Assembly (NCBI GenBank): GCA_002355935.1
Contig: AP017895.1
Span: forward strand, 558,001-622,000
Source of the DNA: Rothia aeria
GTDB lineage: Bacteria > Actinomycetota > Actinomycetes > Actinomycetales > Micrococcaceae
DNA: 64,000 nt
Direction of reading: 5' to 3'
The position numbers and the translations under genes are program-made. Positions 22,628-27,492 of this stretch are shown here, in pieces. The stretch's first letter is position 1; every line of letters starts with the position of its first letter. The notes beneath the pieces were generated by a model. The model was not told where the DNA came from, did not search any database, and saw only the letters and a program-made list of their open reading frames with translations.

Positions 22628-22969
22628 TTAGATAAGGGACTGTACTCGCACCCTCACCTGAGGCTGGGGCTTGGAGCCTGACCCCGAAGCGCCACCCTCT
22701 CGACTTGCTTGCGACAGTAAGCGCAGAACCGCCTCTTGAACATCGCGGACAATTTCTTTGACCGCACGAGAGCCGTCGATTCCAATCTCGATAATGACCT
22801 TCTGCCCGCCCGACTCGATGATAACCCCGAATCGAGCGGCCGCAGGGTCGCCGCTCATACGGCTGCCGATAGCTTTCAGCGTGGAGCCGATCCCCGGCTC
22901 AATGCCGCGCACTCCAGGAACGGCCGTGACTACATGAGTCAATTCGGCTGCTGAGAGGTTAATCGTCAT
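22628..22969 (-). CDS. Small Asp23/Gls24-operon protein D
   Basis: About 113 aa. INLSAAELTHVVTAVPGVRGIEPGIGSTL begins like an Asp23-type helix that senses or packs with partner subunits, and KVIIEIGIDGSRAVKEIVRDVQEAV matches the beta-alpha unit of the family. Start placed at 22969 inside the end of the upstream gene (11-bp overlap), so it is translationally coupled. Last gene of the operon. Exact family name uncertain. Confidence 0.7.
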   Translation of the reverse strand: MTINLSAAELTHVVTAVPGVRGIEPGIGSTLKAIGSRMSGDPAAARFGVIIESGGQKVIIEIGIDGSRAVKEIVRDVQEAVLRLLSQASREGGASGSGSKPQPQVRVRVQSLI

Positions 22970-23507
22970 CGTGCAGATCCTCAATATGAATATTGACGGT
23001 TGGGGACAACTCTAGGTTCTCATAACACGCCTGGCGCACAGCATCACGAACCTGCTGCGCAAGCTGGGGGAGGCTACTGGTTGTAACATGTGCAGAGATA
23101 CGGCAGAAGATCGTATCCGGCATTCCCAGCCCCCGATGACCTTCAGGGGCTGGGGCATGTTTGAAAGAAGACCGCAACGCGCGAGCGCCGGGTACGGAGT
23201 CTACGCTGCGTCGCACTAGGGCGCGTAGGGAGAACTCAGACATGCTATAAGGCCCTAAGTCGGTCGGCGGCATCTCTATCTGAGCGCCATGACGGGTTTC
23301 GGCGATTACCGCATCCATCATGTGACGCTGAGGCATCACCGATGCGCTCGACTGTGATTCCAGTGTGTCCCAAGTCTTGTGGAGAGAAGCAATTAGACGC
23401 AGATATTCCCGTGTGGAGGCCTCATCAAGCTCATGAGCCTGAGACAGCGAACCGGCCGACTGTGCGTGCTGCGGTTCTGCGTGTGGGATGCGGGTGCTGG
23501 AACTCAT
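22959..23507 (-). CDS. Asp23/Gls24-operon protein C
   Basis: About 182 aa. The N-terminal half is hydrophilic; the C-terminal half has the pattern of Asp23-like proteins (DTIFCRISAHVTTSSLPQLA...VRDAVRQACYENLELSPTVNIHIEDLH). The ATG at 23507 overlaps the sigma-factor stop by 4 bp (ATGA). Probable membrane-surface partner in envelope stress; function inferred from operon. Confidence 0.68.
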   Translation of the reverse strand: MSSSTRIPHAEPQHAQSAGSLSQAHELDEASTREYLRLIASLHKTWDTLESQSSASVMPQRHMMDAVIAETRHGAQIEMPPTDLGPYSMSEFSLRALVRRSVDSVPGARALRSSFKHAPAPEGHRGLGMPDTIFCRISAHVTTSSLPQLAQQVRDAVRQACYENLELSPTVNIHIEDLHDDD

Positions 23508-24151
23508 TCCCACTCCTTCATGTGGCGCATCACGAGGGAACGGGCGCGTGCCAGCCTCCCCCGGACTGTGGATTCGGTTAGGTTCAGGGTTTGGGATATC
23601 TCCTCGTAGGACATGTCATCAACCTCTCGAAGCACCCAGACGATACGCAGCTCTTCGGGAGCAGATGCCAACAGTTTGGCTAATGCTTCCATCTGGGCGT
23701 TGACTTCGCTGGACTGCGCCGGATCACCGGCCGCTGTCGACGTTGTGTCAGGGAGGATGCTCGCGCTCTCAAGACCCTCTGAATCGTAAGGGTCAGTGGC
23801 CCGGCGCTGGCGCTGACGAATGCTGCTGGTGGCCTTATTCGTACAGATGCGCATGAGCCAGCCCCGGAAGGCATCAGGATCCCGAAGCAGATGAAGGCTC
23901 CGCCACGCCTGAACAAGGGTCTCTTGGACGATGTCCTCACTGTCGTGGCGGTTGCGCACGATCATGTAGGCGGTGCGAAACAGGCGCCCCTGATAACGTT
24001 CAACGAGCTTTCCGAAAGCGTCAATGTCGCCGTCCTGAGCTCGCAGCACCAGGTACCTGTCTTTGCCCTGGGACGCAGTGTTCGGATGAGGCACATGCTC
24101 GGTGGGCGGACCGGTGGACTGCCCTGCATCGCTGCGCTTTTCATCGGTCAT
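23504..24151 (-). CDS. ECF-type RNA polymerase sigma factor
   Basis: 215 aa. Region 2: FGKLVERYQGRLFRTAYMIV and HDSEDIVQETLVQAWRSL; region 4: LREVDDMSYEEISQTLNLTEST, a helix-turn-helix. It sits within the Asp23 operon, overlapping the upstream gene by 11 bp and the downstream one by 4 bp. No classical anti-sigma gene (zinc-finger or RsgI type) is next to it; the membrane partners encoded beside it may restrain it. Likely directs its own operon. Confidence 0.88.
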   Translation of the reverse strand: MTDEKRSDAGQSTGPPTEHVPHPNTASQGKDRYLVLRAQDGDIDAFGKLVERYQGRLFRTAYMIVRNRHDSEDIVQETLVQAWRSLHLLRDPDAFRGWLMRICTNKATSSIRQRQRRATDPYDSEGLESASILPDTTSTAAGDPAQSSEVNAQMEALAKLLASAPEELRIVWVLREVDDMSYEEISQTLNLTESTVRGRLARARSLVMRHMKEWE

Positions 24152-24791
24152 GATTATCAGAACCGCCGCTTTCTAATGAGTGTTTGCCAGCCACAGTGTG
24201 GGCTGCACTCTGGGGCTTGGTGGCTTGTTCTAGGCGCAGCAGTACGTCGATCTGACGAGCGTGCTTTCCCAGAGAGGAACTAACGTCTTGGTCAAGTCGG
24301 TTCCTGAGCTCGCTCACGGTCCATGCAACCTCGCTGTTCTTTGCTACGGTGACGGTTGCCTGCACCCACAGGTTGCTGGGTGAACCGGTGACCCATACTG
24401 AGCACCGCTGAACCCCCGGGACGTCTTCGGCCCGCTCAGACAGCGCTTGGGCTATGACATCGGGGCTGAGTGTGGCCAGAAGTGTGCCGTCGGAGCCTGT
24501 CAGACGCAAGGGGGACGCGGCAGCTTTACGGGGCACCTGCTTAATGAGCAGAACCAAGCCAAACGCGATGAGAAGAACCGACCCGAGGGCGGCGGCTGGC
24601 AACAGCCAGTGCGCCTGGGGCCCGGCCCAGGTACCGACCCGGGTGTCAGCTTTGGCGAGAACTGAGCTAAGCGTGGGCCATGATTGATCCAAACTTATGC
24701 CGGAAGCCACAACCCAGAGGGCTGCCGCGGTGATCAGTAAACCGCATACCGCAAGGACTATCCTATTGAGAATTCCAGATACTGAACGCAT
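24141..24791 (-). CDS. AmaP/DUF6286-like membrane anchor protein 2
   Basis: 216 aa with two N-terminal TM helices (about 8-30 and 65-85) and a soluble C-terminal domain (LSPDVIAQALSERAEDVPGVQRCSVWVTG). Architecture matches AmaP, which anchors Asp23 to the membrane in staphylococci. Thirteen bases downstream of its paralog at 24805. It overlaps the sigma gene, so the two are probably made together. Confidence 0.7.
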   Translation of the reverse strand: MRSVSGILNRIVLAVCGLLITAAALWVVASGISLDQSWPTLSSVLAKADTRVGTWAGPQAHWLLPAAALGSVLLIAFGLVLLIKQVPRKAAASPLRLTGSDGTLLATLSPDVIAQALSERAEDVPGVQRCSVWVTGSPSNLWVQATVTVAKNSEVAWTVSELRNRLDQDVSSSLGKHARQIDVLLRLEQATKPQSAAHTVAGKHSLESGGSDNHDR

Positions 24792-24804
24792 GGTTTTCTC
24801 TCTT

Positions 24805-25353
24805 TCAGCTCGTGTGCTGGATACGCACTCGGCTGTGTGCGGTTCCGACGGGTTTCAAGGTTTGTATAGCCTGCTCAGCTGCCTTCTGTGCTGCCTGTCG
24901 CACAGGTTCGAGGTCATCCAGGACGCTGAACACTGTCACATTCACGCGCGTTCGACGGACTCGAACCTTGGTGCTGTGAACACCATCGACCCGCTCGACA
25001 TGGGCTTGTACCAGCCTTGCTAGGTCACGACGTGAAATGGCTGTCTGACCGGGTACGTTATCTGCAAGAACCTCAGTGCGTTCAAAAGCCCCCGGCCACA
25101 GGGCAAGAAGAATCATGAACAGACCACATACGGCCACAAAACAGGCCGTTGCTAGTACCGCTGGCGACCCGATGATCGTGGAGTCGAGCCTGCTGACTGC
25201 TGAGGATATTTCATTCGGCCATGCTCCGTTCAGGAGCCGGTTTCCCAACGCCCAGATTCCCAGCCCTCCTACGATGAGAAGCAGTAACGCCAGGACAATG
25301 ACAGGTGCACTCCGCGACGGGCGCCGGATGAGATTTTGTACGGGGGTTTTCAT
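24805..25353 (-). CDS. AmaP/DUF6286-like membrane anchor protein 1
   Basis: 182 aa, same architecture as its neighbour: basic N terminus, two TM helices (LALLLLIVGGLGIWALG; ATACFVAVCGLFMILLAL) and a cytoplasmic domain (ISRRDLARLVQAHVERVDGVHSTKV). ATGA overlap (25350-25353) with the Asp23 gene upstream. Likely membrane anchor for the Asp23 proteins. Confidence 0.72.
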   Translation of the reverse strand: MKTPVQNLIRRPSRSAPVIVLALLLLIVGGLGIWALGNRLLNGAWPNEISSAVSRLDSTIIGSPAVLATACFVAVCGLFMILLALWPGAFERTEVLADNVPGQTAISRRDLARLVQAHVERVDGVHSTKVRVRRTRVNVTVFSVLDDLEPVRQAAQKAAEQAIQTLKPVGTAHSRVRIQHTS

Positions 25354-25754
25354 CGCAGAGCCCTCCTTGCCTGGCTGCTCGGATTGAGCCAGGAGATCTC
25401 AATGTTGATCTTCTCAACCTTCAACCCGGTGAAGTGCTCGACACGCTGGCTCACATGCTCACGCAGCTGTTGCAGGGTTGAAACCAATGCTGTGGGGAAG
25501 GTCAGGCCGATATCCAGGTGCAGGACTGCAACCTGACCGTAAATATCGCACTTTGCCTCGGGGCGCGAGTGGAAATTTCGACGTGCCCCGATCCCGAGCA
25601 GCCCCCCGGCGTTCGAGCCCACATTTGCGCTCTCGTAGGCGGCTTGGGCCGCGATCTGCGCAACAACCTGGGCGGGAATGACGGTGACGCCACGCTGCTC
25701 CTGCCAGGAACTCTCTGCACCGGCAGCAGCGGGCTGTGTGCTGGTCTCCGTCAT
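25350..25754 (-). CDS. Asp23/Gls24 family protein B
   Basis: 134 aa. QRGVTVIPAQVVAQIAAQAA and REHVSQRVEHFTGLKVEKINIEI are typical of the alkaline-shock family. The start at 25754 shares one base with the DUF2273 stop (TAATG); an in-frame ATG 12 bases upstream is possible but overlaps more. Peripheral membrane protein involved in envelope stress, by family. Confidence 0.82.
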   Translation of the reverse strand: MTETSTQPAAAGAESSWQEQRGVTVIPAQVVAQIAAQAAYESANVGSNAGGLLGIGARRNFHSRPEAKCDIYGQVAVLHLDIGLTFPTALVSTLQQLREHVSQRVEHFTGLKVEKINIEISWLNPSSQARRALR

Positions 25755-25930
25755 TACTTCCTCCATCGATTAAGGATGCTTTGGACATCGACCCGGCCCT
25801 CCAGGTAAAGACCCACCACCGTGCCAACCAGGCCGCACAGTGCCACCAGGATGAAATCGGTGAAGGAACCGAAAGCAAGAATTGTTCCCAGGAATAGGCC
25901 CACCAAGAGGGCCAGGTGTGTTGTCTTCAT
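25754..25930 (-). CDS. DUF2273 small membrane protein
   Basis: 58 aa, easily missed for its length. Reads MKTTHLALLVGLFLGTILAF and ends VDVQSILNRWRK: two short TM helices joined by a tight turn. GAGGA stands six bases before the ATG. DUF2273 proteins occur within Asp23/AmaP operons of Gram-positive bacteria, probably as part of the membrane anchor. Confidence 0.88.
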   Translation of the reverse strand: MKTTHLALLVGLFLGTILAFGSFTDFILVALCGLVGTVVGLYLEGRVDVQSILNRWRK

Positions 25931-25954
25931 AAAAGATCCTCAGATCGTGGCTGG

Positions 25955-26437
25955 TTACTTGAGGTCGGCGGAGTCAGCAGAATTGGAGTCGTCGTCGGGC
26001 AGGTGAACGTCGGTGACGTCGATATTGACCTCTACTACCTCTAGCCCCGTGGTCCCCTCAATCTGTTCGATAATGTTGCGGCGGATAGCATTGGCTACTT
26101 CCACAATGGAGACTCCATATTCGACCACGACGGTGACATCTACGGCTGCCTGGGTCTCGCCCTTCTGGACGCTAATACCGCCAGCAACATTGGTCTGGGC
26201 GTTGGGGATGCGGTCGGTCACGGCGCTGAAGGCGCGGCGTACAGCATTGCCCATATCGTACACACCGGGAACTTCGCGGGTTGCCATGCCAGCGATTTTG
26301 GCAACAACGTTCTCTTCAATGGTGGTTACACCGTGTGAAGTCTGCAGGGGGCCGCGAGGGGTTTTGTCCTGTTTAGTCTCCTTGTTGTTTTCGCGCTCGC
26401 GCTGCTGGCCGGTTTGGGGGATGGAGTTGTCGCTCAT
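25955..26437 (-). CDS. Asp23/Gls24 family envelope-stress protein A
   Basis: 160 aa. THGVTTIEENVVAKIAG is closely matched here (SHGVTTIEENVVAKIAG), followed by VVEYGVSIVEVANAIRRNI and VEVNIDVTDVHLPDD, the full Asp23 domain. Hydrophilic N terminus. GAGGCTCCT precedes the ATG. First gene of the operon running down to 22628; likely the most abundant subunit. Confidence 0.9.
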   Translation of the reverse strand: MSDNSIPQTGQQRERENNKETKQDKTPRGPLQTSHGVTTIEENVVAKIAGMATREVPGVYDMGNAVRRAFSAVTDRIPNAQTNVAGGISVQKGETQAAVDVTVVVEYGVSIVEVANAIRRNIIEQIEGTTGLEVVEVNIDVTDVHLPDDDSNSADSADLK

Positions 26438-26712
26438 AGGAGCCTCGTTTCATGTGTTTTTCCGCTGCGCGGATTATGATGTTTGATATGTGCGGCACGC
26501 ATCGACGGCTGGGGGAGTTTGGGCGCTACCCACGCCCTTTATCCGTTCTTGCAGTCGATGGTGACGCTACTATAAAGACGCTTGAGGTACCGAATTCCTC
26601 ACGAATTAAAATAGTGGTATATATCACATTATATTGGCGGGTGTCCGCAACCACGACTGTTGCCCGTGTTTGCTCGGCTCAGCTGCCTATCGCGCGAGTA
26701 GTCCTCATATGG

Positions 26713-26766
26713 AACTAAGCGGTTTATGCAGAAATTCCGAGTTTCTGCATAAACCGCTTAGTTTTG
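26713..26766. terminator. Terminator after glsB
   Basis: Perfect stem of about 20 bp (AAGCGGTTTATGCAGAAA arm) with AGTTTTGTTT/AACTAAG flanks; works for minus-strand transcription and perhaps both. Confidence 0.8.
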
Positions 26767-26800: not shown

Positions 26801-27064
26801 CTACTGGTTCTTCCTGCCGGTCACGCTTAGGTATACGGAGATTGCGATAATGGCGGCAATAACGGATAGGATCCAGCGAATCCAGTCGATACCGGCGGTA
26901 TCTGCAACACCGAAGAAGCTGGCGATTCCTCCTCCTACGAATGCGCCAACAGCACCCAGGATGATGGTCCACAGCACCGAGATGTTCTGGTGGCCTCGCA
27001 TAATGAGGCGGGCCAAAGCGCCAATAATGGCGCCAGCAATAATCATTCCGATGAGTCCAAGCAT
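26801..27064 (-). CDS. GlsB/YeaQ/YmgE-family stress membrane protein
   Basis: 87 aa, three TM helices. GMIIAGAIIGALARLIMRG and ILGAVGAFVGGGIASFFG are the glycine-zipper helices of the transglycosylase-associated family. It lies upstream of and parallel to the Asp23 operon, as GlsB does in enterococci, but a terminator separates them, so it is probably a separate transcript in the same response. Confidence 0.88.
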   Translation of the reverse strand: MLGLIGMIIAGAIIGALARLIMRGHQNISVLWTIILGAVGAFVGGGIASFFGVADTAGIDWIRWILSVIAAIIAISVYLSVTGRKNQ

Positions 27065-27492
27065 GATGTTCTTCCTTTGTGAGTATCCGCCATAGCACGG
27101 GCGCGCCTGAGCGGATGTTGGTATGGGGTCTTAGCGCGCAGATCGGTGAGTTTCTGTCTGAAAGTTCAGTGGTAGCCGGGGTTCCAGTTGCCGTTACTGC
27201 CACATATTGTGTGATCCGACAGGGCTGTCGCCGCCTGCCGTCGTCTCTCAAAACTTGCGGCGCTGATATGAAGACGCCATGGGCACGCAAATCCTCACGT
27301 ACTTAACAAGTGTTTTGCATCACGTATGTGTTGGCGGATTTTTCTTCTGCCGCCGCGCCGCCCCAGACGTGTGGACCAAAAAGTAACCGGTGCCTTCAGA
27401 GAATCCGGCCGCATGTCCTAAAAAGATGTAACGGCCACCCTCTGTTAGGCTTGAAACTTCCAGGAGTTTTAGGACCCCGAGGAGGAACCCGC
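27065..27492. other. Intergenic region, 428 bp
   Basis: Contains the glsB promoter side and the leader of the 27493 gene. No open frame with a credible start and no motif recognised beyond GAGGAGG before 27493. Confidence 0.3.

Follow-up and report, generated by a model that had tools for sequence, protein, structure and literature searches.

Asp23 proteins are widespread in Gram-positive bacteria. The Asp23/AmaP system of Staphylococcus aureus includes a DUF2273-type partner gene, and we know of no pair of extracytoplasmic function (ECF) sigma and anti-sigma factors within its operon. A 2020 paper describes the molecular function of S. aureus Asp23 as still unclear (PMC6954212). According to a review, the ECF286 and ECF292 sigma factors adjoin soluble proteins of the Asp23 family, which it predicts to be anti-sigma factors while noting a lack of experimental data (PMC8999054); an anti-sigma factor of the Asp23 kind is therefore already predicted in print. 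In class I anti-sigma domains (ASDI), helices 1–3 form a bundle that binds sigma region 4, whereas region 2 is bound by the fourth helix; not all members have the zinc motif (PMC7406223). Here we analyze a stretch of 64,000 nucleotides from Rothia aeria (assembly GCA_002355935.1, contig AP017895.1, positions 558,001–622,000; hereafter the window) that contains an Asp23 operon encoding Asp23 proteins, two AmaP-like membrane anchors (M1 and M2), an ECF sigma factor, and two further Asp23-type proteins, P7 and P8 (Table 1). We consider it likely, from sequence comparisons, that P7 is an Asp23-hybrid anti-sigma factor and that the Asp23-layer operon thus contains an autoregulated ECF sigma/anti-sigma module.

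The constant neighbor of the sigma factor is P7. To avoid the circularity of a search with P7, 297 genomes of the order were searched with the sigma factor as the query. The matches split into 101 close sigmas at or above 145 bits, with the next match at 134 bits, and 30 lower-scoring ECFs that reached the cut-off. Among the P7 matches listed, one lies directly downstream of 84 of the 101 close sigmas and of none of the 30 lower-scoring ECFs. Inspection by eye of the other 17 close sigmas revealed a downstream P7-like frame in 16, which overlaps the sigma gene by 4 nt in 15 cases and begins 7 nt after its stop codon in one; two of these frames carry the sequence Hx3Cx2C. Tight spacing extends across 150 distinct sigma–P7 pairs, in which the genes overlap by 4 nt (124 pairs) or 10 nt (22 pairs) or P7 begins 7 nt after the sigma stop codon (4 pairs). 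In one further natural locus, an ECF sigma factor and the Asp23-type domain of P7 occupy a single 508-amino acid frame (L138:6000-7526, minus strand), which may be a genuine fusion or may reflect a sequencing error that shifts the frame where the two genes meet. Eighty-eight loci (three duplicates included) were found by P7, so that P7 is present there by construction. Their Asp23 A operon precedes sigma on the same strand in 32 cases, is divergent and upstream in 40, and follows sigma on the same strand in 5; in the other 11, Asp23 A was not found within the fetched stretch. Because the Asp23 A operon is divergent or was not found in so many of these loci, the anchors are not the constant neighbor of sigma. 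The original prediction described the operon as having no anti-sigma gene and assigned to the anchors the task of holding sigma at the membrane. Both proposals run counter to the position of P7 directly 3' of sigma, to its near-constant presence there (84 of 101 by profile and 16 by eye), and to the anti-sigma-like N-terminal domain of many members of its family.

Members of the P7 family look like hybrids in which an anti-sigma-like N-terminus is joined to an Asp23-type domain. Distant relatives of P7 encoded beside related sigmas contain an N-terminal CGR...Hx3Cx2C region, then a conserved helix, and then the Asp23-type domain. Hx3Cx2C occurs within the first 130 residues in 52 of the 150 paired P7s, after residue 130 in only 1 of 150, and in none of the 150 sigmas; CxxC is kept in 5 further P7s. 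The motif is preceded by CG in 47 of the 52 proteins, with a Cys-to-His spacing of 17–28 residues (17–21 in 42 of the 47). When compared with the Protein Data Bank (PDB), a profile of 30 zinc-type P7s yields 12 matches at E-values up to 10, all of them weak, including RsiW (E 0.0071), DdvA (0.29, fifth), and, at 0.016, a chain annotated as a probable conserved membrane protein that we take to be the anti-sigma factor RslA. NCBIfam anti-sigma models are weakly matched by some of the 30 proteins (NF052375 by four, RsrA by two, NF052368 by one), and Pfam zf-HC2 is matched by one. The relation to Asp23 is evident in the comparison of the zinc-type profile with Asp23 A (98.4%, E 9e-15) and in matches of 26 of the 30 proteins to Pfam Asp23 at E-values up to 0.5. 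As a separate observation, the locus L172:5955-6689 encodes a P7-like protein with Hx3Cx2C in a stretch with no group sigma over the threshold; a more distant sigma is perhaps present.

The closest relatives of P7 in the window are found in Actinomyces, Propionibacterium, Brachybacterium, and Rothia (44–74% identity). The window P7 family aligns to the zinc-type profile over residues 63–184 (99%, E 9e-18), and the helix 4-like part is conserved in the P7 family. A structure model of the window P7 contains helices at residues 22–57 and 63–74, low in confidence near residue 50 and beyond it, followed by an alpha-beta-beta-alpha-beta part at residues 93–180 that is mostly confident. A quick tree of the sigma factors implies at least 7 changes in the zinc motif, which is missing from the window's group of 18; support is poor for a number of branches, including that of the window's group (47). 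The motif thus appears to have been lost repeatedly, the window's clade included, and the N-terminus of the window P7 looks like a reduced anti-sigma-like domain without the zinc motif, a remnant of a class I-like domain. This reduced form would still bind sigma, with the Asp23 part taking the signal. The kinship of P8 to Asp23 A depends on the alignment used (95.7%, E 9.2e-9 with 16 diverse rows; 8% with ten close rows), and 6 of 16 P8-like proteins match Pfam Asp23 at E-values up to 0.5.

Loci without the sigma suggest that sigma and most of the P7 N-terminal domain are missing together. No group sigma is present in 31 of 187 fetched loci, and in 28 of these (between L242 and L312) a P7-like gene lies on the strand opposite Asp23 A. 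In the 28 encoded proteins, the Asp23 part is preceded by a median of 34.5 residues (upper bounds): 43 or fewer in 22 of them, and 54, 55, 56, 61, 99, and 428 in the other six. The corresponding median in the 150 P7s paired with a sigma is 79, with a minimum of 45. By eye, something like the last helix is kept in the sigma-less proteins, the zinc part is gone, and a P8-like part is seemingly fused behind.

The sigma factor probably drives the Asp23 operon. Of 75 regions preceding Asp23 A, 30 contain the motif GTGAsGA-N13-17-CGTC, which we take to resemble ECF promoters, as compared with 0 on the reverse strand and a mean of 0.3 (maximum 2) in shuffles; of 18 regions preceding GlsB, 8 contain it (reverse strand 0; shuffles mean 0.03, maximum 1). 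The window contains two copies, one before Asp23 A and one before GlsB, versus 0.18 expected. In the whole genome, a slightly longer pattern has 4 matches, two of which are the promoters of the Asp23 operon and glsB, and the reversed-pattern control has 0. Across 35 genomes of the genus, the pattern is found in 29 and the reversed control in 15; because of the latter, the pattern counts as evidence only together with its position. Among 51 divergent or lone loci, 14 have a motif that points away from sigma and 3 have one that points towards it. In all seven Actinomyces and Propionibacterium loci, the operon has a GlsB-like frame upstream, which is preceded by the motif in six, or in five with a stricter pattern. 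The other two copies in the R. aeria genome, C1:817077-817103 and C1:1103896-1103921 (L207 and L208), have no clear target; the former has no clear downstream gene, and the latter lies, by eye, inside a tRNA-dihydrouridine synthase-like frame.

Several observations weigh against P7 as an anti-sigma factor and against the proposed regulon. The window P7 lacks Hx3Cx2C, the alignment of its family to the zinc-type profile begins only at residue 63, and its N-terminal half is modeled with low confidence. The top PDB match of the zinc-type profile is a C2H2 zinc finger (E 0.0033), which scores above the anti-sigma factors, and single P7 members match unrelated families at similar E-values. Four of the 16 frames recognized by eye (L188, L191, L193, and L199) give no match to the earlier P7 profile and were called P7-like by their likeness to others; the sigma of L185 has no P7 downstream. 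Covariation, computed in each case with kinship ignored, is divided. Among the top 60 couplings of 86 pairs, 12 link P7 helix 4 with sigma region 2 (4.4 expected), as a class I-like complex would have it, and 7 link P7 helices 1–3 with sigma region 4 (7.3 expected). With all 150 pairs, the largest excess links helices 1–3 with region 2 (22 vs 8.6), which counts against our model because known complexes would not predict such a contact. The 28 sigma-less loci all come from one genus, other genomes of which have the sigma–P7 pair, and may represent one event or a paralogue. Finally, the motif was not found in 45 of the 75 Asp23 regions, and 3 of 100 shuffles of the window had two or more copies.

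Taken together, these findings lead us to propose a model in which P7, translationally coupled to sigma, acts as its anti-sigma factor. The N-terminal helices of P7 would hold sigma, while its Asp23-type domain would convey the state of the Asp23/AmaP layer. If the envelope or the layer were disturbed, P7 would release sigma, and free sigma would transcribe the Asp23 operon (sigma, P7, and P8 included) and glsB from GTGAsGA-N-CGTC promoters. The new transcription would rebuild the layer and reset the system. We infer the binding and inhibition of sigma by P7, the reading of the motif by sigma, the docking of the Asp23 domain on the layer, and the signal. More tentatively, the layer could read its own state: P7 would dock on, or be competed off, the Asp23/AmaP layer, and sigma would be freed if the layer were damaged or lacked parts. 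A single protein family may then supply the layer subunit, the sensor, and the anti-sigma factor of a homeostat. S. aureus reacts to deletion of either asp23 or amaP with a strong induction of its cell wall stress response (PMC6954212), and a second report agrees with respect to the loss of asp23 (PMC11350273); this response fits a layer whose loss is sensed. A point on the other side is that ethanol shock lowers the expression of an Asp23/Gls24 gene in Streptomyces venezuelae (PMC9769785), which is a misfit with simple induction of the layer by membrane stress; that gene is likened to ours by family name rather than by operon. The earlier suggestion that Asp23-family proteins serve as both layer and sensor survives in part, in that an Asp23-type protein probably regulates sigma; the regulator would be P7, with no such role for the anchors.

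Among other explanations, partner switching survives best, and we regard it as unlikely. P8 or free Asp23 subunits would compete with sigma for P7, and unassembled Asp23 rather than the membrane would be sensed. The gene for P8, an Asp23-type protein, follows that of P7 with an 11-nt overlap in the window and is also found after P7 in the close relatives L003–L011; the seeming fusion of P7-like and P8-like parts in sigma-less loci and the ability of S. aureus Asp23 to form filaments (PMC6954212) are likewise consistent with such competition. P8-like genes are, however, diverse and labeled in only part of the loci. It is distinctly improbable that P7 is instead a co-factor or layer subunit that merely shares the sigma transcript, with sigma activity set by its own synthesis. 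The absence from the window P7 of the zinc motif and of most of a recognizable three-helix part would suit this explanation, but it leaves unaccounted for the 4- or 10-nt sigma–P7 overlap in 146 of 150 pairs, the anti-sigma-like motif in 52 of 150 P7 relatives, and the shorter P7 N-terminus where sigma is absent. Retention of sigma at the membrane by M1 and M2 with no dedicated anti-sigma factor, for which one could cite the 11-nt overlap of M2 with the sigma gene in the window and the matches of both anchors to DUF6286 and AmaP models (M1 over the DUF6286 cut-off), is very improbable in view of the divergent or unlocated Asp23 genes (40 and 11 of the 88 loci), the results of the sigma-first search, and the anti-sigma-like N-terminus of the P7 family.

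The anti-sigma model outlined above is built on an operon of eight open frames on the minus strand (26437–22628), in the order Asp23 A, DUF2273-like, Asp23 B, M1, M2, sigma, P7, and P8, an order and place that agree with the original prediction. Gene starts and junctions refer to the likeliest starts and not to the longest frames, which begin at 25766 for Asp23 B, at GTG 23513 for P7, and at TTG 22984 for P8. Five of the seven junctions overlap (in order, a 24-nt gap, overlaps of 1 and 4 nt, a 13-nt gap, and overlaps of 11, 4, and 11 nt), so that the description of nearly every junction as overlapping holds apart from the two gaps. As for the family names proposed previously, Asp23 A and B match Asp23 (PF03780); the matches of the second gene to DUF2273 and of M1 and M2 to the curated AmaP model fall below the cut-offs. 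The description of P7 and P8 as two more Asp23-type proteins is upheld by family profile comparisons, which link both to Asp23; neither matches the Pfam Asp23 family itself, and neither has a transmembrane (TM)-like stretch. In the sigma factor, sigma-70 regions 2 and 4 are both matched. The expected GlsB-like gene does lie upstream of the operon, and a terminator-like inverted repeat with 25-nt arms (26713–26763) is located between glsB and the operon.

Table 1. Genes and predicted promoters of the Asp23/sigma locus (positions in the window; aa, amino acids)
Feature	Position	Strand	Basis
Predicted ECF-type promoter of glsB, same motif as operon promoter	27273..27298	-	Shared motif
GlsB-like (Transgly_assoc) small membrane protein	26801..27064	-	PF04226 33.5 bits; predicted second transcript of regulon
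Predicted ECF-type promoter of Asp23 operon, GTGAGGA ... CGTC	26577..26602	-	Shared motif
Asp23 protein A, 160 aa, first gene of operon	25955..26437	-	PF03780 96.7 bits
DUF2273-like small membrane protein, 58 aa	25754..25930	-	PF10031 16.9 bits (cut-off 25.4); hydrophobic stretch; related frames in relatives
Asp23 protein B, 134 aa from ATG 25754	25350..25754	-	PF03780 34.7 bits; GGAGG before ATG
Membrane anchor M1, DUF6286/AmaP-like, two TM-like stretches	24805..25353	-	PF19803 93.7 bits; NF033218 43.4 (cut-off 55)
Membrane anchor M2, AmaP-like, two TM-like stretches	24141..24791	-	NF033218 39 bits (cut-off 55); PF19803 27.1 (cut-off 35)
ECF sigma factor, 215 aa	23504..24151	-	PF04542 61.3 bits, PF08281 44.2 bits
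P7, candidate anti-sigma factor	22959..23507	-	N-terminal helices and C-terminal Asp23-type domain; 4-nt overlap between its ATG and the sigma stop
P8, small Asp23-type protein, ATG 22969	22628..22969	-	Family profile comparison with Asp23 A

The distribution of the module suggests its possible exchange among actinobacteria. Of the 35 genomes of the genus, 19 have Asp23 and sigma, 1 has sigma alone, none has Asp23 alone, and 15 have neither; the weakest Asp23 matches in this survey may be P7 itself, and the sigma is present in every one of the 15 genomes whose Asp23 match exceeds 86 bits. The close form of P7 is present in 3 of the 35. The window sigma shares 76% identity with its counterpart in Actinomyces oris, and 41% and 36% with those in two other genomes of its own genus. 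Among window frames of at least 80 amino acids at 12–38 kb, only those of the operon were matched in L003 (Actinomyces) and L009 (Propionibacterium), with one exception, a frame over glsB that was matched in L003. The same-genus locus L173 shares the flank of the window as well. Other loci of the genus (L140, L174, L175, L157, L165, and L176) contain sigma–P7 versions clearly different from that of the window, and they fall on several branches of the sigma tree. Two plasmids of Dietzia kunjamensis (NZ_CP099713.1 and NZ_CP099715.1) carry annotated Asp23, DUF6286, and sigma-70 genes, where the match to the operon is 15%, so plasmids may be a vehicle for modules of this kind. The R. aeria genome contains four genes with sigma-70 region 2, one of which encodes a primary-type sigma, and its other two ECF-type sigmas are adjoined, by eye, by an RsrA-like and an RskA-like gene.

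The operon resembles the S. aureus system in its Asp23 and AmaP-like proteins; Asp23 is held under the membrane by AmaP in that organism (PMC6954212). P7 can be compared with two kinds of anti-sigma factors. Like the ASDI proteins RsiW, ChrR, RseA, and RskA, P7 is encoded adjacent to an ECF sigma; Hx3Cx2C is present in many of its relatives and absent from others, as across ASDI groups, and the conserved helix of the family lies where ASDI helix 4 would be. P7 differs from these proteins in having no TM-like stretch, in the Asp23-type domain that forms its C-terminal part, and, in the window, in the two N-terminal helices of its model, which are partly of low confidence. The zinc-type relatives of P7 are soluble and combine a Cys with Hx3Cx2C, as do soluble zinc anti-sigma factors of the RsrA/SigR type, and the RsrA model is the one that two of the 30 match weakly. 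Unlike RsrA, P7 has an added Asp23-type domain, and the absence of the zinc motif from the window protein makes zinc-based redox sensing unlikely there. From this family it seems that the pairing of an anti-sigma factor with its sigma can outlast repeated losses of the zinc site.

Judged by gene neighborhood, the nearest counterparts are ECF286 and ECF292, since the window sigma likewise adjoins a soluble protein of the Asp23 type. A literature search confined to open-licence papers found none that describes the promoter, the zinc-type domain, or a connection to glsB, and the review passage on ECF286 and ECF292 mentions neither a promoter or regulon of these groups nor a zinc-type domain at the N-terminus (PMC8999054). 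Our analysis extends that prediction to specific domains, a motif for the promoters, and a regulon of two transcripts, all open to testing. With an Asp23-type anti-sigma factor tied to the operon of the layer, the promoter of that operon would report what the layer senses.

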